Shown: positions 1 to 19,131 of the stretch, in pieces
How positions within the stretch are numbered: the first letter of the stretch is position 1
Layout of the letters: each line of letters begins with the position of its first letter
DNA from: a virus
Reading direction: 5' to 3' (one strand)
Virus record (IMG/VR): IMGVR_UViG_3300042389_000266
Coordinates: 1-25,023 of that record
DNA length: 25,023 nt
Made by a program: the position numbers and the translations under genes
Notes under the pieces: model-generated
Seen by the model: only the letters and a program-made list of their open reading frames with translations
What the model was told of the DNA's origin: nothing
The model's database searches: none

Positions 1-3000
1 CGAACAAAGTTCCATTCTGGTTCTGATGGCTTAATAAACAAAAAGTTTACTAATAGAATTGTAACTACAGATTATTTAACTTTATCTGTAGGTAACATAG
101 TGTATGTTGGAACAATTACTGATGGAGATATTACTTATGCAAAAGCGCAAGCATCTCCTGCTGGAAATTATGATGTAATTGGTATAGTGGAATCTATTAG
201 TGGTGGTTCTGCAACAATAGTGTTGAATGGTGAATTTGAACTCAATGGAGTTAGTTCCCTAGAACCAGGCATAAAATATTACTTATCTCAAACAACTGCT
301 GGTCAATATGTTCAAGAAGGTACATATTCAACTGGTATAATAAAGCCAGTATTTGTTGCAATTTCTTCCAGCAAGGGTATTTTGCTTGGTGCAAACGAAA
401 ATGCAAACATATCAAGTGTATCTGTCACCGATCAAGCACTTAATGAAGAAACTCTAGAAGTAAATTCTCCAAACTTTGATCTTAAGTTTGTTGCTGGACC
501 AAATATTGATTTGGATATTAATTCCAACAACGAAGTTGAAATACGAGTAGTAGATCTTGCTGGTTCTCAAGACACATTTAGAACTATTACTGTTAATGGT
601 GTTGGTTCCGATGGTGATGGTTCTGTGGTTGCTGATGTTCCAAATGATACTTTGACATTTACTAGTAGTACTTTGTCAATCACAGCAAACTCCACTACAG
701 ATACTATAAATTTTGAAGCACCAAATGCATTTACTACATTTAAATTCAGTGATGGAACAGATTATTCTTATGTTGCTGAATCAACATCAGATACTTTACA
801 ATTAATTGCTGGAGATGGTGTCACCTTCACACAAAACACCGATGATTCTATAATCATTTCGGCAACTGTTGAGGGTGGAGTTGCCCCAGAAAATATTACA
901 TATTCTGGAGCATATCAAGTATTGGTTTCCGATTCATCATCTGATGGAATGGCAGTATCGCTTTTAGGTGGTGATGCAGATTCGTTCACAATAGGTTATG
1001 GTTTGGGAACAACAAATATTGCTTTGGATCATACTAAAGAAATAACACTTTCCGCAGGAACTGATGAATACACATATGATGGTGATCTTTATAATTTAAA
1101 CTCTAGCGGTGACTGGCCAACAACAACTTGGTCAAAATATTTACCAGATCAACTTGCTGGTTATATGGTGGGAAGAATTACAACAAGTGCTTTAGGTGAT
1201 AATAGCACATTCCCTGATAGTAAAATAAGAAGACTTTCAAGAAGAGATGTCAGACACTTTTTGGGTATAGCCCAAGAAGGATTTATTGATAATATTGGAA
1301 GTGTTTTTAATCAATGGACAATAGACGGCGGGTCAACTTATGTTACTGCAAACGATAAATCTGGTGTTCTTAACATACAGGCGGGTGCTGGTATATCTCT
1401 TTCAAATCCCGGCGCACCAGATAGAATAGTAATCACAAATACAGGTGTTGCTCAAAATGCATTTGGTAGCGTAATAGTTAAAAATTACAATGGTAGCACG
1501 ATAGATTCATTTGATGCTGCTAGTTCTTCAGATAATTTTACTTTAAAATCTGGTAGATTTGTTACAATTGACACAGATACCAATAGTGATACTGCAATTT
1601 TTGATATTTCTATACCAGACGATTACTCAATATTGGGTAACCCAGGCACAACAGATGGTATGGGTATAATTAGTCTTGCAAGTAATAGTTACTCTTTATT
1701 GGGTCGTTCTGGTGGTCCAATTGAAGCAATTACAGCAGATACTCTTAAGTGGACTGGAGTAACTTCTGGTACTTTAACTTCTCCCGAAATGGAACTACCA
1801 TATTTTGGTGTAGTACAAGTTGGAACAGCAGGCACACCAACCATATTGAACTCATATGGTGTTGGTAAAGGTGCATTAAGAGTTGAAGCTGGTTCTGGTG
1901 TAACTTTAACAGCAGACACCAATACAAATACAATTACTATTACATCTGAAGGTGGTCCAGGCACTACAACCGAAAATGCACTAAGAACACTATTTGCTAA
2001 TAGTTCGCAATATAATTTTAGTTCAACTTTTAATAGAGTCAGATTAAATAACGGTAATGGAATTGCCATAACAAGCAGTTCAGATTCAACCGACGCAATA
2101 TTGAATTTTAATCTAGCATCTATACCAAACAACAGTGTTCTTGCTAATACCAATAGTATTGACGCGGTTCCTACACATTTGAGTTTTGCTACCGATCAAA
2201 TTTTAGGTAGACTTGGTGGTTCTGGTGCATTGGGTGCGTATCCCATTAAGTCTGGTACTGGAACAACATTAAGAGAACGACTTGACATAAGACATTATGG
2301 TAAGGTTCAAATATCAGATGGAACCACAGTAACAGATTTAACAGCTCTCGGTAGCGGCACTGCAACCTCAACGACAGGTGCCACTTTACGATTAAGAGCT
2401 GGATCAAATATTACATTGTCTGGCTCACTTTCCAACGATAGCACATCTATAATAACAATCACCGGAGCAAATCCATCATTAATTTTAGATACTAATCCAG
2501 AATTTTCTGGAAGCGTATTCAGTGGTACTGGAAGACAAAATGTTATAACATATGGTGATCCATTTATTGGTGTCGTTCCTAGCGGTAAAGCAATAGTAGA
2601 ACGACACAGAACATATGATGTTTCTAATGCAAATAATGAACATTTTATAACATTTAGAGAACTACAATTACCTCTAATTAATAGTTCACTTTCTACTTTT
2701 GCCACAGTAACTTCTCCAGTTACAGGACAAAGCATAAAAGCAGATTCTGGTAATGCAACTCAATACATGTATGCGGGTGGGTATACCTTAAATGTTAGAA
2801 ATCTTTCAGCCGGTTCAACAACTCAAGGTAATTTGACTTTTGTTGGTGATGCAATTCGTTTAAGTGCAACTGGCACCATACATTTAGAAGGAACTGGTAC
2901 TGCTGTAAACTTGAATGCTAAAGTTTTAAGAGGTACTTCTAATACATTTAAATTTGGTGCTGTTGGAGAATGTATTCTGTCATCAACAAATACAAGCGGT

Positions 3001-3606
3001 ACAGTTAGTAGTACAAATTTTATAATGCACAGCGGTTCTTCATTCATGTTGCGTTTTGGTGCAACACCGATAACTCAACTACTTTTCACAGATGAAGATC
3101 AAGATGGTGAAGTAAGAATAACCACAACTGGAACAGGAGCAAATAAAAAAGTAGTATTTGATACAGATGTTGATTTTGGTGTAGTTAGTGGCTCTACAAG
3201 AACAATTGATTTTGCAAATGCTACGATAGTAGGTTTAACTGTATCTTCGCACAGTTCAACACACGACGCCGTTGATAGTGCCAGTTCCAATACTGTAGCA
3301 AGTATTGGTACAGATCCTATACAGGCTTGGCAAGTGGGTGGAGTTGCGCGCGGTCAACCCACCATGCTAAATACTATCGGTATAGTAAATGGAGATGGAC
3401 AGTACGATTTTGATTTAAGTGCTGTATCCAAAGCACTCCTCTATAGTGGTTCTACCACATACAATACTACAAATTATACCAGTAGTATAACAGCATCGAC
3501 AAAAGGACCACTTTACTTAGTCGTTCCAAGTGATACGGATACCACAAATCCTGCTGCATGGCCTCCAGGTCCTCCAGGTCAAATTATTCTCATAAGAAAG
3601 CCATAA
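1..3606 (+). CDS. Large repetitive tail fibre-like structural protein, 5' end missing
   Basis: The reading frame is open from the first base of the window, so the gene starts upstream; the GTG at 100 is only the first possible internal start. About 1201 residues are visible. The protein is rich in Ser, Thr, Gly, Asn and Asp and almost lacks Cys. It carries many divergent copies of a beta-strand module of the form aGsGvtlt-(D/N-rich turn)-ntitIs, for example near 811-870, 1381-1440, 1885-1947 and 2395-2463. Such modules are typical of phage fibres and adhesins. The C-terminus ends in a short Pro/Gly stretch (WPPGPPGQ). The next gene starts 4 bases after the stop. Its position ahead of the neck genes fits a virion fibre. 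I cannot match it to a named T4 fibre gene, and the receptor or partner is unknown. Virion fibre is inference from composition and repeats. Confidence 0.7.
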   Translation, partial: RTKFHSGSDGLINKKFTNRIVTTDYLTLSVGNIVYVGTITDGDITYAKAQASPAGNYDVIGIVESISGGSATIVLNGEFELNGVSSLEPGIKYYLSQTTAGQYVQEGTYSTGIIKPVFVAISSSKGILLGANENANISSVSVTDQALNEETLEVNSPNFDLKFVAGPNIDLDINSNNEVEIRVVDLAGSQDTFRTITVNGVGSDGDGSVVADVPNDTLTFTSSTLSITANSTTDTINFEAPNAFTTFKFSDGTDYSYVAESTSDTLQLIAGDGVTFTQNTDDSIIISATVEGGVAPENITYSGAYQVLVSDSSSDGMAVSLLGGDADSFTIGYGLGTTNIALDHTKEITLSAGTDEYTYDGDLYNLNSSGDWPTTTWSKYLPDQLAGYMVGRITTSALGDNSTFPDSKIRRLSRRDVRHFLGIAQEGFIDNIGSVFNQWTIDGGSTYVTANDKSGVLNIQAGAGISLSNPGAPDRIVITNTGVAQNAFGSVIVKNYNGSTIDSFDAASSSDNFTLKSGRFVTIDTDTNSDTAIFDISIPDDYSILGNPGTTDGMGIISLASNSYSLLGRSGGPIEAITADTLKWTGVTSGTLTSPEMELPYFGVVQVGTAGTPTILNSYGVGKGALRVEAGSGVTLTADTNTNTITITSEGGPGTTTENALRTLFANSSQYNFSSTFNRVRLNNGNGIAITSSSDSTDAILNFNLASIPNNSVLANTNSIDAVPTHLSFATDQILGRLGGSGALGAYPIKSGTGTTLRERLDIRHYGKVQISDGTTVTDLTALGSGTATSTTGATLRLRAGSNITLSGSLSNDSTSIITITGANPSLILDTNPEFSGSVFSGTGRQNVITYGDPFIGVVPSGKAIVERHRTYDVSNANNEHFITFRELQLPLINSSLSTFATVTSPVTGQSIKADSGNATQYMYAGGYTLNVRNLSAGSTTQGNLTFVGDAIRLSATGTIHLEGTGTAVNLNAKVLRGTSNTFKFGAVGECILSSTNTSGTVSSTNFIMHSGSSFMLRFGATPITQLLFTDEDQDGEVRITTTGTGANKKVVFDTDVDFGVVSGSTRTIDFANATIVGLTVSSHSSTHDAVDSASSNTVASIGTDPIQAWQVGGVARGQPTMLNTIGIVNGDGQYDFDLSAVSKALLYSGSTTYNTTNYTSSITASTKGPLYLVVPSDTDTTNPAAWPPGPPGQIILIRKP

Positions 3607-3610
3607 TATT

Positions 3611-3745
3611 ATGTTTGTAAGAGATAGTGGAAATACACCAAGAGAAATATCTAGAATATTTGTCAGAGATAGTTCTGGAAATCCTCAAGAAATTTCAAAA
3701 ATATATGTCCGCGATGGTAGCGGTAATCCTATATTAGTTTTTGAT
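3611..3745 (+). repeat. Three tandem 45-bp (15-codon) repeats encoding VRD modules
   Basis: The first 45 codons of this gene are three consecutive 15-residue units, each with the core (F/Y)VRD followed by SGN-P and, in the first two, EIS. The units differ at many synonymous positions, so the repeat is old or under protein-level selection rather than a fresh duplication. Confidence 0.8.
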
Positions 3746-5986
3746 AATACCACTGTAGTTGTTCCTGATTTATGTCCAAGTTGCACTGCTGGTAGTGTTT
3801 ACTATTTTACTGTGGGTGGTAGTGGTACGGGGAATACCATTTTCACATTGTCTTTGGGACAATCATATGCTAATTATCCTCAAATTAGCAGTACCGTCCA
3901 AAATGGAACAAATACACCCTCAATCAATATACAAAAAGATTATTGGTCAAAAGTATCAATAAAATATGACATTTTAAAAACAAATAGTGAAAATTTAGAA
4001 ACACAAACCACTTATTATAATACTCTTGAACAAAATTTAGATAGTAGTTTTTGTGAATGGTGCATAACGGATTTTTCTATTACTTCGCTTTTTCCAACTC
4101 TTATGGCAGAAACGTTATTGGGAACTTCTATTGATGGACAACCAATTACAGGTTATGGAAATTTAAATAATTATCCTGTGCTTCCGGGCTACATTATAGT
4201 GGATTATAAAACATACAACAAACGAAGCACGGTATTTTCTATTATGAATATGCCTCAAATTCAATGGACCACTCATGGTGTAAATTACACAAATCCAGAA
4301 ACATCACAGGTTTTGGTTCCTTTTGGTGCATATGATTCTCGATTTGCCCCAGATACAGTCCCTAGTACCAGAAGTAGTACAATTTACCCGTTTTATAACA
4401 GGCCTGTGTTATTAAATGTTCCAGATTTACAACCCGGTGGTCAAGGGTTTAGTCATAATAGTTTATGTGGGCAAGAGTATTGCGGTGGTATATTTACTCA
4501 AGAATTTTTTGAACGTTGGGCATTTGGTTCATGTTGGAATTGGGGTTCTGGTGGATCTCAAAGATTTTTTGAATCCATTATCCCATCTGGCATAAACATA
4601 GATCCTTGTATTACTGGTGATGTTTTTCTACCACCAAATGGTAGCACTTTCCCAACAGTAAATAATGGTACTGGAGATGATTGTAGACTATTTGTTGGTG
4701 GTTACGATCAAACCGATTGGGAAGGAATTAATCCATATTCTTGGATTCTTTATTATGAAAACGGTGCAACAGGAAACACTATACCTGAAGTATTATCATC
4801 TGCAAAACCACAAGATTGCTGTACTAGTTGTTTTTATGGACCAGTAGAATCTTCTACCCCAAACACAAATGATATGTGCAGACACATATATCAAATACCA
4901 CCAATCAATTCTTTAACTCCTCCTAGTACAAAATTAGATTTCTTTGACAGTATTGGTACTGGAGCCGTTCTTGGACCAGAAATTCAGGGTTCTTCCTCTA
5001 GTGCAGTTATTCGTTATACTCTTCCTGCGTATGTTACGCTAGATCCTGCATTAAAATCAAAAATAGTAAAAATGTTTGCCGTGAATTCTAGCAATTCTAA
5101 TATAGATTCATTTATAAATGCTGGACCAGATTTGTTTGGTGATGATTCGGGTAGCACACTAACGACAGAAGAACTTTCTGTTTGGAGAGCTATTAGTGGG
5201 TTCATGGGTTTAAATATTAAAAATGGATTACCTTTAGAAAATTTTGAAAGAGTTTATTTATCATCTTCATCTTTTTATTATGAAGAAAACAGATTTGATG
5301 CTAATCCATTTGGTCCAGCACCACAACTTTCATTTTATCCCGCAGCACCAATAGGCATTTCTACAGTATCTGGTGCCTCTTCTCTTGGACAATATCCTTT
5401 GATATGGTGGAGTATGTCTGGATATCCAACAGAACAATCAACTCATTATATTGTATTGGAATTAGAATTTAATGCAGAAAACTGTGCGACTTCTATAGCA
5501 AATAAAAATGATGCATTCCGATTAGAAAATTTAAGAAAAATACTAAAAGGTATACAGTTTTATCCAGTACAATTTTCTTGCAAAAATATGATAGGTTTGA
5601 AATATCAAACAGGAATTGCGACTCCCACAGAAGTAGACGCAATTAGACATTTTCCACATCCTGCATATGCAGAATTAGTAATCGATAGTACAGTACAAAA
5701 TGGTATAGATGTAGTTACTGGTACAAATGTAAATGGTTGTGGATTTGTTGATATATTATGGACTAATCAATTGATACCAGTAGATCAGGGTGGAACTGGT
5801 GTAGTAACAAGTACTACTTCTTCATCACAACAAACGAGGGAACAAAAAACATTACTTTATAATTATAAGTTTATTTCCAGTAGTGTTCCTGTTGCACGTT
5901 ATACCTTTATGAGATTAAGATTACCATCAATGACATATAGCAAATTCTTAACCAAATATTATAAACCACAAACTACTATTTCTTGA
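3611..5986 (+). CDS. Probable virion structural protein with N-terminal VRD repeats and CxxC pairs
   Basis: The protein has 791 residues. It opens with three in-phase 15-residue repeats (consensus (I/M)(F/Y)VRDsSGNPqeIS, residues 1-45). Similar VRDG/VKDG-type repeats occur at the ends of other phage tail structural proteins, from memory. A long body without a recognised domain follows, rich in Ser, Asn, Tyr and aromatic residues. Cysteine pairs stand out: CPSC at residues 55-58, CEWC at 148-151, and further on a CGQEYC cluster and a CCTSC cluster. No signal peptide or membrane segment is seen. It lies 4 bases after the fibre gene, with only a weak ribosome-binding site, so translation is probably coupled to it. 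A sigma70-like promoter overlaps its stop codon and serves the next gene. Its role is probably tail fibre, fibre connector or baseplate-associated. The exact function is unknown. Confidence 0.6.
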   Translation: MFVRDSGNTPREISRIFVRDSSGNPQEISKIYVRDGSGNPILVFDNTTVVVPDLCPSCTAGSVYYFTVGGSGTGNTIFTLSLGQSYANYPQISSTVQNGTNTPSINIQKDYWSKVSIKYDILKTNSENLETQTTYYNTLEQNLDSSFCEWCITDFSITSLFPTLMAETLLGTSIDGQPITGYGNLNNYPVLPGYIIVDYKTYNKRSTVFSIMNMPQIQWTTHGVNYTNPETSQVLVPFGAYDSRFAPDTVPSTRSSTIYPFYNRPVLLNVPDLQPGGQGFSHNSLCGQEYCGGIFTQEFFERWAFGSCWNWGSGGSQRFFESIIPSGINIDPCITGDVFLPPNGSTFPTVNNGTGDDCRLFVGGYDQTDWEGINPYSWILYYENGATGNTIPEVLSSAKPQDCCTSCFYGPVESSTPNTNDMCRHIYQIPPINSLTPPSTKLDFFDSIGTGAVLGPEIQGSSSSAVIRYTLPAYVTLDPALKSKIVKMFAVNSSNSNIDSFINAGPDLFGDDSGSTLTTEELSVWRAISGFMGLNIKNGLPLENFERVYLSSSSFYYEENRFDANPFGPAPQLSFYPAAPIGISTVSGASSLGQYPLIWWSMSGYPTEQSTHYIVLELEFNAENCATSIANKNDAFRLENLRKILKGIQFYPVQFSCKNMIGLKYQTGIATPTEVDAIRHFPHPAYAELVIDSTVQNGIDVVTGTNVNGCGFVDILWTNQLIPVDQGGTGVVTSTTSSSQQTREQKTLLYNYKFISSSVPVARYTFMRLRLPSMTYSKFLTKYYKPQTTIS

Positions 5987-13424: not shown

Positions 13425-15062
13425 ATGGCATTTGATATATTCGGTTTTACTTTTGGTAGAACTAAAGAGCAACAACAATCTGTTCCCTCAGTAATTCCCC
13501 CGGCTATGGACGATGGCGCATCCTTCGTCCAAGCCGGTGGTTTTCAAGGCTGGTATGTAGATCTTGATGGTACTGTCAAGTCTGATGTAGATTTGGTTAA
13601 AAAGTATCGTGAAATGAGTCTTCATGCTGAAGTTGAAATGGGAATAGACGACATCGTAAATGAAGTAATAACCGAAGATGCTTCTGGTACATTTATTAAA
13701 TTAAATATAGACAAAGTAGATTCTAGTATTATTCCAGAAGAAGTTAAAAAAGTTTTATATGACGAATTTAAACACATTTTATTCTTATTGGATTTCAATA
13801 GAAAGTGTTATGAGATTGTTCGTCGCTGGTATATTGATGGTAGGTTATATTATCACATTATTCTGGAAGATGATCCACGACAAGGAATAAAAGAAGTACG
13901 ACAAGTAGATCCTCTTAGAATTAAAAAAGTAAGAGAAATAAAGAAAAAACAAAAAGTAAATGGTGTTGATGTTATTGATGGTGTAGAAGAATATTATTTG
14001 TACACCGTTCAAGAAAGATTTAACATGTATGATACCACTCAAGGTATCAAGTTATCTCCCGACTCCATTAATTACTGCCACTCTGGTTTATTTGATTACG
14101 GCACAAAAAGAGTAGTAAGTTATCTTCATAAAGCAATTAAACCATTGAACCAATTAAGAATGGTCGAAGATGCTACCGTAATTTATCGTTGGTCAAGAGC
14201 ACCAGAGCGTAGAATATTCTATATCGACGTTGGTTCTTTGCCAAAAAATAAAGCAGAGCAGTATCTAAGAGACATCATGTTGCGTTATCGCAATAAGATT
14301 ACATACGATGCCGGTACTGGTGAAATCCGCGACGACAGAAAACACTTGAGTATGTTGGAAGATTATTGGCTCCCCCGTCGTGAAGGTGGTAAGGGAACAG
14401 AAATTCAAACACTATCCGGTGGTCAAAATCTAGGTGAAATGGAAGATGTAAAATACTTCCAAAAGAAACTGTTTAGAAGTTTGAATATTCCTATGTCTCG
14501 TTTAGAAGCAGACAATGGATTTAACATGGGTAGAGCGGCGGATATTAGCAGAGATGAATTGAAGTTTGCTAAATTCATTTCTCGCCTTCGCTCTCGGTTC
14601 TCAGAGTTGTTCTTAAACTTTATGAGAACTCAATTGATTGCAAAAGGAATAGTAGATATTGACGAATGGAATAAGATTTGTCAATACATTCGTTTTGAAT
14701 TTTCAACGGATTCAATGTTCTTAGAATCTAAGCAATCTGAAGTGCTAAAAGACAGAATGGCAATTTTGAGAGAAGTTTCCGATTATTCTGGTAAGTATTT
14801 CTCGGAAGAATGGATTAGAAAGAATATTCTTCATCAAACAGACGAAGACATTCAATTGATTGATTCTCAAATTGAACAAGAAAAAATGATACAAGAACAA
14901 AAGCAAATGGAAGAACAAATGCGCGCCGAGCAATTGGCAGCACAAACTATGGGTGTTCCTGGCGGTGCGCCTGGAGCAGGAGCATCTGCACCAAGTCAAC
15001 CAACAGCAGTTGCACCACAGCAATCAACGGGAGTAGATTACGATGCCAGCAGCCTTTTATGA
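13425..15062 (+). CDS. 20: Portal vertex protein gp20
   Basis: The protein has 545 residues (T4 gp20 524). Family-typical segments include the GWYVDLDG region, EMGIDDIVNEVI, the RQVDPLRIKKVR region, RAPERRIFYIDVGSLPK, the DDRKHLSMLEDYWLPRREG segment and SRLEADNGFNMGRA. The dodecameric ring initiates prohead assembly, then holds the gp17 motor and later the neck. The C-terminus is an extended Gln/Glu-rich helix ending in a low-complexity Ala/Gly/Pro/Gln tail (about residues 500-535), which looks flexible. An ideal GAAGGAG precedes the start. The last 20 bases overlap the next gene, the first of the accessory cassette. Confidence 0.96.
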   Translation: MAFDIFGFTFGRTKEQQQSVPSVIPPAMDDGASFVQAGGFQGWYVDLDGTVKSDVDLVKKYREMSLHAEVEMGIDDIVNEVITEDASGTFIKLNIDKVDSSIIPEEVKKVLYDEFKHILFLLDFNRKCYEIVRRWYIDGRLYYHIILEDDPRQGIKEVRQVDPLRIKKVREIKKKQKVNGVDVIDGVEEYYLYTVQERFNMYDTTQGIKLSPDSINYCHSGLFDYGTKRVVSYLHKAIKPLNQLRMVEDATVIYRWSRAPERRIFYIDVGSLPKNKAEQYLRDIMLRYRNKITYDAGTGEIRDDRKHLSMLEDYWLPRREGGKGTEIQTLSGGQNLGEMEDVKYFQKKLFRSLNIPMSRLEADNGFNMGRAADISRDELKFAKFISRLRSRFSELFLNFMRTQLIAKGIVDIDEWNKICQYIRFEFSTDSMFLESKQSEVLKDRMAILREVSDYSGKYFSEEWIRKNILHQTDEDIQLIDSQIEQEKMIQEQKQMEEQMRAEQLAAQTMGVPGGAPGAGASAPSQPTAVAPQQSTGVDYDASSLL

Positions 15063-15696
15063 ATTTAGTGTAGAACAAGGATCTGATTTCGTCACATCCT
15101 TTAAAATATTAAAACCAACTGGCGGTTTATTTAATTTTTTACCAGCAAATGGTGCTTCTTTTTGGAATAGTGCAAATACTTCAGTAAATTTTGATGTTCC
15201 TGAAGAAATTAAATTAGCATATCCAGAAAATGCTGATTCTTTTGGTTGGTTAAAAAATGTAACAACATCTGCTAGTTGGGTTGATAGAACTTTTCTTACC
15301 ATAAGAATGAAAGTGAAAGATAACAAAGGTTGTCAAAAACTTAACGGTCAACGAATTTACAAAGCAGTTAGAAAAACAGCAACAGATGAAATAATTGTAC
15401 AACAAGATGATACAAATTTTGTAGTGGATAATTCAAATCCAGGATCTTGTACTCCTATTGGTTCTGGTGCGGGTGCAATTAAAATGAAACTTTTTGATAA
15501 TAGAACTGACTATAATGCCAATTTAATTATACCTAATGCAAATACTTCTTTGTTTTTGGGTAAATATCTATATGACATTGAACTTGAATATAGGTTAGGA
15601 GTTTATAATTCAAATCCAAATAATATAACTACAAGTGGATTTGTTATAAGAATGTTACAAGGAAAAATGACATTTAATCCAAATATTACTGCTTAA
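15043..15696 (+). CDS. Beta-rich virion-type protein of the accessory cassette
   Basis: The protein has 217 residues, and no named family is recognised with certainty. The layout (YEFSVEQGSDFVTSFKI at the start, strands separated by D/N turns, then FLGKYLYDIELEYR and a final VIRMLQGKMTFNPNITA) resembles the beta-sandwich modules of phage baseplate or upper-fibre proteins, in which a ligand-like domain ends with a G-x-hydrophobic-x-hydrophobic-xP-x-(I/V)T strand. The start overlaps the gp20 end by 20 bases and is supported by GGGAG at 15029-15033. The next gene starts 1 base after its stop. In T4 this interval carries prohead core genes 67 and 68, so this is an insertion relative to T4. It may be an anchor for the collagen-like protein that follows. 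That role is inference. Confidence 0.6.
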   Translation: MPAAFYEFSVEQGSDFVTSFKILKPTGGLFNFLPANGASFWNSANTSVNFDVPEEIKLAYPENADSFGWLKNVTTSASWVDRTFLTIRMKVKDNKGCQKLNGQRIYKAVRKTATDEIIVQQDDTNFVVDNSNPGSCTPIGSGAGAIKMKLFDNRTDYNANLIIPNANTSLFLGKYLYDIELEYRLGVYNSNPNNITTSGFVIRMLQGKMTFNPNITA

Positions 15697-15697
15697 T

Positions 15698-17191
15698 ATG
15701 GCAAACAATTTTAAAATATTTGTAAGTTCTTTTCCTACAAAGATTGCATTTAAAAGAAGTAATGCAATTGATGTCTATCAAATAAATAAAATTGAGTACA
15801 CAGAAGCAAAAATTATTGAAAATCTTACGTTAGCCGGAGAACTGTACGGAGCAGGAACTACGGGTATAAATGTAGGGGAATCTTGTACATCAAATTTAAT
15901 TGGTTGTGATGAAGAATTCGTAGCACCAACTCCAGAATGTGAAACCGGGGGAACGGGACCACGAGGGCCCGCTGGACCTGCTGGACCACAGGGACCTACC
16001 GGACCACAGGGACCACCGGGTGCCGGAGGATCAAGAATATTCTGTGGTTATTTGGGAGGACCACCAAAACCACCAGAAGGTAAAATATCAGTTGATTGTT
16101 TAAAAAATGCAACAGGTTATGTTGTTAGTAGAGCACCTGGTCCAACTTGCAATGGTGGAGGAAATCCATTAGCGTCTGGTAGTGGTGCAAATTTAAACGA
16201 ATTTAAGAAAAGATTTTTTACTACAGATGAGTACTATGTTATAGGAGATGTTAATGGTTGCGGATATTCTACAGTACCATTAGCGGATGGGTGTACAACA
16301 GGCAACACTCACTATGAACATAGAACTGTATATAATGGTTATAAATCTAATGGTATTTGTTATTCATCGCAGCAATGGGATTTTGGTAAATACACACAAT
16401 CCGTTCTAGGTACTACACTAACGGAAGAAAATAGAAGTTCTGTGGCTGCTTCGGCAAGAACAGGCGGTTCCAACCAATTAATTTTTATACCAACCCAACA
16501 AATATATGGTGGTGCAGAAACTGCAAGATTGGATGATTGGTTCGATGTTGTTGGAGGTGGAACTGGTAATGGATTGTATGATATCTTGGCAGATTACAAT
16601 CCAGATTGTGGTCCAGAAGGACCACCAACAGCACCACCAATAGCAGATCAGGGATCTACTATTTGTGCAGATGGAATAGAACCATCCGGTGCGCCGTTGC
16701 CTGGAGATGAAAATGAATGTAATGGTGGTTGCAATAATCCAATATCAAATTGCGATGAAGTTACTGATGGAGATATATTCATCGATGCAACAAATGGAGT
16801 AATGTATTTTTACTCTGAAGGAGCGTGGTCCTCGCAGGGAATCCCTTTAGGGGGTGAGTCTGATTGTACAAAACAATCAGACTGCAAAGACAAAACTGGT
16901 GCTGGATCTTGCGAAGGAACCGTTACTTGTTTTTGTCCACCGGGTGAAAATTGCGGCGATTTTGCGGGATGCACAAGTCCAGAAGGTTGCTCTGATTGCG
17001 AAGCAGCAAAAGCAGCAGCAATAGAAATTTTAAAGGCATGCACAAATGGTACATGTGCTGGTGCAATTGCGGCGCTTGGTGGGGAATGTCCATCGAGTAG
17101 TGATTGTGCAGATTGCATTAGTTCTTTCTATTGTTATTATTATAATGGTTATCATTATCCCGGAATAATTGTGGCGCCCGGTGGAGTTTAA
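15698..17191 (+). CDS. Collagen-like, cysteine-rich fibre or surface protein
   Basis: The protein has 497 residues. The N-terminal approximately 60 residues are strand-rich, perhaps for attachment. Residues 87-110 are eight Gly-X-Y triplets, Pro-rich, of the kind that forms collagen triple helices in phage fibres. A central region follows, with a GDIFIDATNGVMYFYSEGAW motif common in collagen-like phage tail proteins. The last approximately 110 residues contain 15 cysteines, including FCPPGENC and CSDC-type spacing, and end in a Tyr-rich and Gly/Pro tail. Such a Cys density is unusual for a phage virion protein and suggests disulphides outside the cell or metal binding. The gene follows its neighbour by 1 base and is followed by a glycosyltransferase-like gene. 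It is probably a trimeric fibre or a head or tail decoration. The location on the virion is unknown. Confidence 0.65.
   Translation: MANNFKIFVSSFPTKIAFKRSNAIDVYQINKIEYTEAKIIENLTLAGELYGAGTTGINVGESCTSNLIGCDEEFVAPTPECETGGTGPRGPAGPAGPQGPTGPQGPPGAGGSRIFCGYLGGPPKPPEGKISVDCLKNATGYVVSRAPGPTCNGGGNPLASGSGANLNEFKKRFFTTDEYYVIGDVNGCGYSTVPLADGCTTGNTHYEHRTVYNGYKSNGICYSSQQWDFGKYTQSVLGTTLTEENRSSVAASARTGGSNQLIFIPTQQIYGGAETARLDDWFDVVGGGTGNGLYDILADYNPDCGPEGPPTAPPIADQGSTICADGIEPSGAPLPGDENECNGGCNNPISNCDEVTDGDIFIDATNGVMYFYSEGAWSSQGIPLGGESDCTKQSDCKDKTGAGSCEGTVTCFCPPGENCGDFAGCTSPEGCSDCEAAKAAAIEILKACTNGTCAGAIAALGGECPSSSDCADCISSFYCYYYNGYHYPGIIVAPGGV
15956..16027 (+). repeat. Collagen-like Gly-X-Y coding repeat, eight triplets
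   Basis: Twenty-four codons encode consecutive GPR, GPA, GPA, GPQ, GPT, GPQ, GPP and GAG triplets. The DNA here is clearly more G+C-rich than the rest of the cassette because of the Gly and Pro codons. It is short for a collagen helix, so it would act as a trimerising linker. Confidence 0.85.
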
Positions 17192-17198
17192 TTTAATT

Positions 17199-18170
17199 AT
17201 GAAATTGATACACAGTTTTTCAACTAATATTGATGATACACAAAACACTAAAGAAGCAATAAACTCAAAAAAATGGGGAGACAGTCTATCCAAAAGAAGA
17301 GTTCATTGGTATTGTTGGGTTTGGTCTTTTTTATCTGCCTCTAAACATTCCGATCAATTTGAGTTATATACTGATGCTATGGGTGCAGATATTTTAGTTG
17401 GTGCATTAAATTTACCATACAGTAGAGTTAATTTGACATTAGATGGTATAAACAAAAAATACTTGTATCTTGGGAAAATAAAAACATATGCAGTTCAAAG
17501 AGAACCGTTTTTACACATGGATGGTGATGTTGTTTTTAGAGAATTTTTCCCCACCAATTTGCCTAATCTATATGCACAACAATATTCATGGTGGTTAAAG
17601 GATTTATACCAAAACATTTTAGTACTATTGTTTAATAATAATTTTGAAGCAATACCCGAAGAATTTAAAAAATTAAACATTCTAACAATGAAAAATTCCG
17701 AGTTTGGAACTCTAAATGCGGGAGTATTTGGTGGAACTGATTTAGAATTAATACGAGAATGTGCAAATAAAACTTTATTGTTTTTTGAAAATACACACAA
17801 TACAAAATTATTAAATGATCTGCTGGATGAGTTTAGTCTTATGACTTTTTATGCAAATAATAAAAAAGGTAGTACATATACACAAACCGCATTATTTTCT
17901 TTATTTGAAGAGTTTTTACCAGTTTTAATGTATAAACAAAAGTATAAAAATTTAGATGGGTTAAAAACCGTATTAAATGAAGAAGACATAGAAAAAGAAC
18001 ACACAGTAGAATTAAATATTGATAGAAGTACAAAGTTAAAATATGTGCATTTAATGGATGCAAAACGTGATGATGGAGAACCAAGCATAGCATATAGACA
18101 ACGCTTTATCCAAAAGTTCAGAGAAGAGTATCCAGAGTGGGCAGCCAAAGTCGATACATATCTAAGTTAA
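17199..18170 (+). CDS. Glycosyltransferase-like protein (DUF6734-type)
   Basis: The protein has 323 residues. I chose the ATG at 17199 (MKLIHSFSTN) because an earlier in-frame ATG at 17169 lies inside the previous gene. Signs of a GT-A glycosyltransferase fold are a first strand KLIHSFS, YTDAMGADIL (residues 57-66), the acidic HMDGDVVF motif (106-113, a DxD-like metal and nucleotide-sugar site at D108-D110), NAGVFGG (173-179), which in such enzymes lines the acceptor side, and a C-terminal HLMDAKRDDG. The order matches DUF6734 proteins as I remember them. It is inferred to transfer a sugar in the host cytoplasm. Placement directly after the collagen-like gene suggests a virion protein as substrate, but lipopolysaccharide or another host glycan is also possible. 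Codon use is very AT-rich, unlike gp23. Confidence 0.65.
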   Translation: MKLIHSFSTNIDDTQNTKEAINSKKWGDSLSKRRVHWYCWVWSFLSASKHSDQFELYTDAMGADILVGALNLPYSRVNLTLDGINKKYLYLGKIKTYAVQREPFLHMDGDVVFREFFPTNLPNLYAQQYSWWLKDLYQNILVLLFNNNFEAIPEEFKKLNILTMKNSEFGTLNAGVFGGTDLELIRECANKTLLFFENTHNTKLLNDLLDEFSLMTFYANNKKGSTYTQTALFSLFEEFLPVLMYKQKYKNLDGLKTVLNEEDIEKEHTVELNIDRSTKLKYVHLMDAKRDDGEPSIAYRQRFIQKFREEYPEWAAKVDTYLS

Positions 18171-18176
18171 TAAAAC

Positions 18177-18184
18177 TATAAATA
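18177..18184 (+). promoter_or_regulatory. T4-type late promoter box (TATAAATA) for the prohead core gene
   Basis: A perfect TATAAATA lies 18 bases before the ATG at 18203 and directly after the glycosyltransferase stop. It restarts late transcription for the core protein and gp21 after the accessory cassette. Confidence 0.75.
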
Positions 18185-18202
18185 ATAAAAAAGAGGTATT
18201 CT

Positions 18203-18478
18203 ATGTCTAGCGAAAAAATAATCGATGCACTATTCGATAACAATTTAGAAAAATTCCGAACAGAAGTTCGTACTGCTTTATACACAAAAGCAGGAGAGTA
18301 TATGAACAACGCAAAGCAAACCGTTGCTGGTGTCATGATGAATCCTCCAGAAGAAGTACAAGAGGAAAAAAAGAAACTATCTAAAGAGCAATTAGCAGCA
18401 GTAAGAGCACCACATGATAAGATTACCCGTGGAGACATTATTGCTCTTGCTCAAAAGAACGCAAAGAAAAAGGGGTAA
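18203..18478 (+). CDS. Probable prohead core (scaffold) protein, gp67/gp68-like by position
   Basis: The protein has 91 residues, is charged and helical, and has no membrane segment. The first half (KIIDALFDNNLEKFRTEVRT, then AGEYMNNAKQTVAGVM) has the pattern seen in small T4-like head-core proteins: an amphipathic helix, a linker, and a second helix ending in A-x-x-(M/L/F). The C-terminus is Lys-rich. It lies between portal and gp21 protease, where T4 has core genes 67 and 68. An AGAGG ribosome-binding site and a late promoter precede it, and gp21 begins 5 bases after its stop. The family assignment rests mainly on position and composition. Confidence 0.6.
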   Translation: MSSEKIIDALFDNNLEKFRTEVRTALYTKAGEYMNNAKQTVAGVMMNPPEEVQEEKKKLSKEQLAAVRAPHDKITRGDIIALAQKNAKKKG

Positions 18479-18483
18479 TATAG

Positions 18484-19131
18484 ATGAAACTTATTACTGA
18501 AACAAGACAACAAGACATTCAATATGTTTCTGAAGCCGCAGAGGGTGGTAAGAAGTCTTACTTCATTCGTGGTGTTTTCGCAGAGTCCAATAAGGTAAAC
18601 AAGAATCAACGATTTTACGAAGGACCAGTCATGGAGATGGCTGTACAAACATACAATGATACCTTTGTAAAAAATAGTCGCGCTTTGGGTGAACTTGGAC
18701 ATCCAGAAGGACCAACTGTTAATTTAGAAAGAGTATGCCACATGATCAAAGATCTTCATGTGGAGGGTAGTCAAGTAATGGGTAATGCAAAGATCATGGA
18801 CACCCCATATGGTAGAATTGTACAAAACCTTATTGATGAAGGTGCTAAACTTGGAGTGTCTACCCGTGGTATGGGTTCATTGGCTGAGCGTAATGGAGTC
18901 AATTATGTGCAAAAAGACTTCATGCTTGCCGCTGTCGATGTAGTTGCAGATCCCTCTGCACCAAACGCATTCGTAGACGGCATCATGGAAGGTAAAGAAT
19001 GGGTTTGGGACAATGGTGTTTTCAAACCAACAATCATTGAGAATTACAAAAAACAAATTGAAAAAGCAGGATCAAGAAACTTGGAAGAAGCCAAATTAAA
19101 AGTATTCCGCGATTTCTTATCTAAATTGTGA
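18484..19131 (+). CDS. 21: Prohead maturation protease gp21
   Basis: The protein has 215 residues (T4 gp21 212). The herpesvirus-type serine protease fold is indicated by RGVFAESNKVNKNQRFYE, the catalytic His in GELGHPE (H73), the catalytic Ser in KLGVSTRG (S126) and the AAVDVVADPSAP segment with the third acidic residue of the site. It is built into the prohead core, activates itself, and cleaves gp22, the core proteins and the gp23 N-terminus during head maturation. An AAGGGG ribosome-binding site precedes the start. All key residues are present. Confidence 0.95.
   Translation: MKLITETRQQDIQYVSEAAEGGKKSYFIRGVFAESNKVNKNQRFYEGPVMEMAVQTYNDTFVKNSRALGELGHPEGPTVNLERVCHMIKDLHVEGSQVMGNAKIMDTPYGRIVQNLIDEGAKLGVSTRGMGSLAERNGVNYVQKDFMLAAVDVVADPSAPNAFVDGIMEGKEWVWDNGVFKPTIIENYKKQIEKAGSRNLEEAKLKVFRDFLSKL

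Follow-up and report, generated by a model that had tools for sequence, protein, structure and literature searches.

Three closely packed genes, here called A, B and C, lie between the portal gene gp20 and a gp67/68-like prohead core gene in a 25,023-base stretch of viral DNA (IMG/VR virus record IMGVR_UViG_3300042389_000266, positions 1 to 25,023; hereafter the window), which we analysed together with loci (L numbers) and genomes (G numbers) of its relatives. A and B, which are exchanged as one allele, probably specify an anchor and its fibre, a pair that would belong to the host-contact (adhesion) apparatus, and C, where present, most likely modifies the fibre. The strongest evidence for a host-contact module is the swapping of A-B alleles between near-identical phages. 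A-B-C is a real, variable fibre module; its ingredients are known, and the interesting part is its site and the clean exchange of alleles. The main features are as follows.

15043..15696, + strand: gene A, 217 amino acids (aa), immunoglobulin (Ig)-like/beta-sandwich fibre-anchor-like protein of the phrog_1084 type, predicted fold close to T5 p132
15698..17191, + strand: gene B, 497 aa with 29 cysteines, collagen-stalk fibre protein with a conserved N-terminus and an exchangeable C-terminus
15947..16036, + strand: GXY triplets of collagen type in B (GGTGPRGPAGPAGPQGPTGPQGPPGAGGSR, residues 84-113), read directly from the sequence and tested by shuffles
17199..18170, + strand: gene C, 323 aa, ATG start, DUF6734 family protein (PF20508), possible GT-A-type protein-modifying glycosyltransferase
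17514..17528, + strand: HMDGD motif of C, residues 106-110
15090..17100, no strand: segment swapped for a divergent allele in G001/L006, by sliding DNA identity, with 99-100% identity elsewhere
15090..18250, no strand: segment replaced in G002/L015, by sliding DNA identity, covering A, B and C (G002 lacks C)

Allele exchange at A and B

Two of the genomes compared with the window are also represented among the loci (G001 is the same phage as L006, and G002 the same as L015), and a third, G003, is a longer copy of the window, identical to it over the compared stretch. Sliding DNA identity between the window and G001 was 99-100% up to approximately position 15,090, fell to about 40-73% over A and B, and rose to 93-99% from approximately 17,100, C included. 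With G002 the drop in identity spanned approximately 15,090 to 18,250. For the individual genes, gp20 of the window and G001 is 99.8% identical, A 42% and B 58%. In L003 gp20 is more distant (92%), yet A and B are 86% and 79% identical to those of the window. The A-B alleles are exchanged by recombination, and the joint variation of A with B suggests that the two must match each other. The tails of B swap independently of its heads: between L004 and L015 identity is 95% for the fused B tails, 52% for the B heads and 87% for gp20.

The extent of co-variation was assessed in three genomes, two of which carry the same alternative alleles. Between G003 and G001/G002 the genes from gp13 to gp23 are 94-100% identical, and the genes of low identity (range 37-83%) are mostly tail-fibre and baseplate-region genes. 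They include fibre genes of 1558 and 791 aa before gp13 (the region of window positions 1-5986), which are only 47 and 37% identical, a baseplate-region run (mostly 47-79%; gene names here were inferred from place and size), two long genes at 56 and 67%, one gene at 75%, and A and B themselves. The alternative alleles common to G001 and G002 are 94% identical for A, 71-89% for the fibres and 97-100% for the baseplate genes. A and B co-vary with tail-fibre and baseplate genes, and therefore behave as part of the host-contact gene set; the proposal in the initial annotation that the unit is a module for a surface structure is in keeping with this result. Near-identical genomes that differ at A-B and at tail-fibre genes amount to a natural experiment, from which the genes that determine host contact could be read.

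Conservation of the slot between gp20 and gp21

The window carries a T4-like structural module in the order gp13 to gp23, with a T4-type portal. The genes flanking A-B-C are as follows.

13425..15062, + strand: gp20 portal gene, left flank (Pfam Portal_T4, expect value (E) 2e-167); its final 20 bases hold the start of A
18203..18478, + strand: gp67/68-like prohead core gene, right flank (weak PHROG matches, including prohead phrog_1064, E 0.002)
starting at 18484, after the gp67/68-like gene: gp21 (phrog_207, E 7e-75)

The three genes are spaced by -20, 1 and 7 bases, exactly as first described: A opens at 15043, before gp20 closes at 15062, giving a 20-base overlap, A and B are separated by 1 base, and B and C by 7. 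They interrupt the usual gp20 to gp21 order, as had also been claimed. Only short genes were found between portal and protease in eight cultured phages (S-CAM8, Mosig, C48C1, Melnitz-2, P-TIM40, phiM7, D483 and Ozark), and an adhesion module would thus stand at a place where T4-like phages normally have none. A search of 50,697 deposited phage records with A, B and C gave no match, for C also at E 1.

Eighty loci were recovered by searching IMG/VR with gp20. Wherever gp20 identity was at least 54% and the end of gp20 was readable, a start codon was present 20 bases before the gp20 end (29 of 29 loci, several of them near-identical to one another). This codon sits within ATG(C/T)CAGCAGC and opens A, although L080 ends soon after. 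A was absent after gp20 in all 43 IMG/VR loci with gp20 identity of 53% or less, where the slot contained short genes only. Where the sequence runs on past A, the next gene is always large: in nearer relatives it is B (462-772 aa), and in deeper relatives (L069-L079) a single protein of 819-875 aa with about 55 cysteines, in which no family was recognised, takes the place of B. B or another large Cys-rich protein adjoins A in every readable locus, and A and B are never separated; scattering of these genes among relatives, which would have spoken against a unit, was not found. Since A begins at the same distance from the gp20 stop, 20 bases, in each of the 29 relatives that could be read, A is ancestral in the clade. 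The combination of A and a large Cys-rich partner is thus old and fixed here, and was not inserted recently.

The third element, by contrast, is modular. The window, its near-identical copies, G001 and L003 all carry C; G002 and L004 have in its place a longer B with a fused tail. In L035 and L037 the third element is a separate Cys-rich protein of 740 aa, and L058 (10206-14114) and L062 (10930-15633) encode Cys-rich proteins of 1302 and 1567 aa with RCC1-type beta-propeller repeats (Pfam E 9.5e-66 and 9.8e-54). The fused segment of B, the last 293 aa in L015 (L015:10039-10917) and found also in L004, resembles a nucleotidyltransferase to the eye; Pfam, NCBIfam and PDB searches gave nothing, and the segment is called here simply the fused tail. 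In another T4-like branch (L092, L106, L108 and L114), about five to six small unrelated genes lie between gp20 and gp21.

Gene A encodes a predicted Ig-like sandwich

The product of A in the window matches phrog_1084 (E 5.9e-5, profile positions 6-115 of 123), and a match to this family was obtained for 17 of the 18 members of the A family (best E 1.1e-12). For one member there was also a weak match (E 0.0096) to a PHROG family named 'L-shaped tail fiber protein assembly'. Genes of phrog_1084 lie in the tail-fibre clusters of Mosig (54133-54474) and C48C1 (153094-153450), where they are annotated as 'putative tail fiber protein' and 'L-shaped tail fiber protein assembly', and a second phrog_1084 copy stands beside fibre genes in G001 and G002.

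An AlphaFold model of A built from 18 sequences is all-beta, with a mean predicted local distance difference test (pLDDT) of 80 and a predicted template modelling score of 0.79. When the model was compared with 997 PDB chains using VIA-align, the top two matches were a DT57C baseplate chain and a T5 tail-tip chain, aligned over 112-113 residues at 2.6-2.7 Å with a Z score of 8.2, which is borderline by the tool's own note. The T5 chain was taken to be p132 by its size (PMC10038345), and one match in a viral library was named LtfC/p132/Gp6 beta-sandwich protein. In T5 the L-shaped fibre is anchored by p132, which forms a dodecameric Ig-like collar; p132 is lost when this fibre is truncated, resembles the N-terminal domain of BppU, and probably grips the fibre by its N-terminus, over some 50 residues (PMC10038345). 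It is safe to say that A is predicted to be an Ig-like sandwich for which p132 is the best functional parallel, and the model and the phrog_1084 matches agree with the earlier description of A as beta-sandwich and anchor-like. Foldseek also matched A to phage Milano proteins of the neck and collar, but with low probability, and these matches were not used.

Gene B has the probable layout of an adhesin

In B the first ~110 residues are conserved and are followed by a Cys-rich C-terminus. Approximately eight GPX/GXY triplets fall within residues 84-113, and seven or more triplets were reached in only 3 of 5000 shuffles, so that a collagen-type run above chance and 29 cysteines bear out the initial assignment of B as a collagen-type Cys-rich fibre. 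PHROG tail-fibre matches of B cover mainly this run. A sequence search of B against the PDB gave nothing meaningful, and comparison of its N-terminus with that of the 819-875-aa proteins of deeper relatives using hhalign gave scores at background. Phage adhesins are usually built from a constant base, a stalk and an end that changes, and B appears to fit this plan.

Gene C belongs to the DUF6734 family

C is a full-length member of DUF6734 (PF20508), aligning over residues 1-315 with profile positions 1-280 of 286 (130.7 bits against a cut-off of 27, E 9.3e-38). The family motifs are HxDGD and NxGxxGG, and all of 42 sequences compared share H106, D108, D110, G175, G178 and G179. The HxDGD motif of C is suggestive of the DxD metal motif of GT-A enzymes, and on these motifs a glycosyltransferase is plausible. 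The structural evidence is less informative: an AlphaFold model of C built from three sequences reached a pLDDT of 33, sequence and profile searches against the PDB gave nothing meaningful, and hhalign comparison of DUF6734 with GT8 and GT32, made with few Bacteroidota sequences, was at background, the same as for six unrelated phage proteins, which does not exclude a glycosyltransferase fold. Of the sugar-transfer enzyme originally proposed, then, the conserved motifs stand as plausible support; the DUF6734 membership, the poor model and the GT8/GT32 comparison lend it none.

Relatives of C in the GTDB genome set are all from Bacteroidota by record titles, except for one from Chlorobiota among the 80 kept. 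The 81 neighbours of 14 bacterial DUF6734 members included eight C39 peptidase, six VKOR, six HlyD and four LanC-like genes, counts for which the background frequency was not measured; the C39 domains include C39 peptidase-ABC exporters. Two plasmid copies of DUF6734 adjoin genes for VKOR and TlpA, and close to one of these two copies there is a lantibiotic dehydratase as well. These neighbours point to exported, modified peptides, and suggest that DUF6734 takes part in the modification or export of peptides, as would suit an enzyme with peptide or protein substrates. The tail of B may be a target of C, because the 97% identical block common to the window and G001 includes the last ~30 codons of B together with C.

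Proposed mechanism and alternative explanations

Late in infection, gp20 and A would probably be made in a linked fashion. A, as a protein of the T5 p132 and phrog_1084 kind, probably forms a ring or patches on the virion and probably grips B by its N-terminal ~80-110 residues, in the way proposed for p132 and the T5 fibre. B is probably a trimer, in which a short collagen stalk would lead to a disulphide-rich head touching the host surface. C, where present, would most likely act as a fibre-modifying enzyme, and the modification may be the addition of sugar.

Several observations weigh against this interpretation. The phages carrying A-B are uncultured and known from sequence alone, and a position beside gp20 could also mean a head or neck appendage. 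The Z score of A lies near background with antibody-like domains close behind, Foldseek of the A model against the PDB gave nothing at E of 0.001 or below, and the match appears to show an Ig-like sandwich more firmly than kinship to p132; phrog_1084 itself carries no assigned function. No curated family scored above its cut-off for B (Pfam Collagen PF01391 gave 15.5 bits and needs 27.2), and no tool returned C as a glycosyltransferase. The anchor-plus-fibre reading is nevertheless well supported.

We consider it unlikely that A-B is instead a neck or head appendage at the portal vertex, comparable to the whiskers or head fibres of T4, that aids assembly or surface proximity and not receptor choice. 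Such a role would account for the strict linkage of A to gp20 and the 20-base overlap throughout the 29 loci, and a P74-26 neck chain (9oab_Ga, Z 6.4, 2.2 Å over 79 residues, 18% identity) is among the better structural matches of the A model. That match, however, ties with antibody rows, gene order does not fix location, and swapping in step with tail-fibre and baseplate genes fits receptor contact better. A reading of A and B as non-structural products of the late operon is the most improbable of the explanations considered; it draws on the lack of direct virion evidence, and the predicted fold of A, the collagen stalk, the Cys-rich architecture, the occurrence of phrog_1084 in fibre clusters and the co-variation with tail genes all argue against it. 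The initial annotation had also viewed A, B and C as a self-contained inserted cassette. A single mobile cassette recently placed between gp20 and gp67 would explain why the slot is short in other T4-like phages and why a late-promoter-like site directly follows the unit, but we regard this as highly improbable and the claim as unsupported: A, with its exact overlap with gp20 and a large next gene, is fixed in every readable locus with gp20 identity of at least 54%, the A-B alleles recombine, C is optional, variation is confined to C and distal parts, and no mobile-element gene was seen in the gp20-gp67 interval.

For C, a possible though not favoured alternative is a sugar-transfer enzyme unrelated to the fibre, which merely occupies a tolerant slot and changes the surface of the host or some other target, for instance so as to keep out competing phages. 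Host-recognition clusters of pelagimyophages carry glycosyltransferases that have been interpreted as changing host O-chains (PMC7029224); C is optional, being missing from G002, and is 97% conserved while B changes. Against this, C begins only 7 bases after B, the block common to the window and G001 takes in the end of B as well as C, and the bacterial DUF6734 neighbours are peptide-export and modification genes. The fibre-and-anchor reading can also be extended to a second, portal-linked adhesion device with a duplicated, allele-swapped anchor, whose disulphide-rich fibre would be modified inside the cell by an enzyme from Bacteroidota peptide-tailoring clusters, so that the phage would decorate its own fibre; this fuller version is speculative and we think it rather unlikely.

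Relation to known systems

The collar protein p132 (LtfC) of T5 with the L-shaped fibre pb1, and the N-terminal domain of TP901-1 BppU, are the closest parallels to the predicted pairing of a small Ig-like beta-sandwich, A, with a fibre. Compared with p132, A is longer (217 against 140 aa), has extra loops and helices, is only ~11% identical, and is encoded beside the portal gene of a T4-like phage; its ring and its binding of a fibre are predicted by analogy. The phrog_1084 proteins of the marine T4-like phages Mosig and C48C1 belong to the sequence family of A and are encoded beside or among fibre genes. Whereas those lie in the tail-fibre cluster, A occupies a second location, after gp20, with a fibre partner of its own.

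Variable adhesion genes inside a conserved structural module, accompanied by glycosyltransferases as C may be, are also found in the hypervariable host recognition cluster of pelagimyophages and cyanomyophages, which lies between VrlC and gp14 (PMC7029224). A-B-C is at a different site (gp20 to gp67/21), is much smaller, and has a fixed anchor gene. Several PHROG families of collagen-like phage tail fibres share the GPX/GXY stalk with B, but that of B is only ~8 triplets long and under the Pfam Collagen cut-off, and is joined to a Cys-rich head and a swappable C-terminal module. C scores above the DUF6734 cut-off and keeps all the key motif residues of the Bacteroidota proteins; these are often longer (440-590 aa) and encoded in peptide-export clusters, whereas C belongs to a phage and adjoins a fibre gene. 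The locus offers a first functional lead for both DUF6734 and phrog_1084.

A late-promoter-like site downstream of C

The presence of a late-promoter-like site directly after the unit, noted in the initial annotation, was confirmed.

18177..18184, + strand: TATAAATA, late-promoter-like site, 26 bases upstream of the gp67/68-like start at 18203

The exact octamer occurs four times in the window, each time on the + strand, upstream of gp13, gp67/68, gp22 and gp23. This number is not unusual (3.1 expected by chance); the placement upstream of structural genes is. The site was also considered as proof of insertion and set aside, as the contrast is weak: most loci without A have no exact TATAAATA anywhere. 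In L106, L108 and L114, which lack A, it is found upstream of gp22 and not upstream of gp67/21. Among the A-bearing relatives readable at this point, 13 of 14 carry the exact TATAAATA upstream of the gp67/68-like gene.

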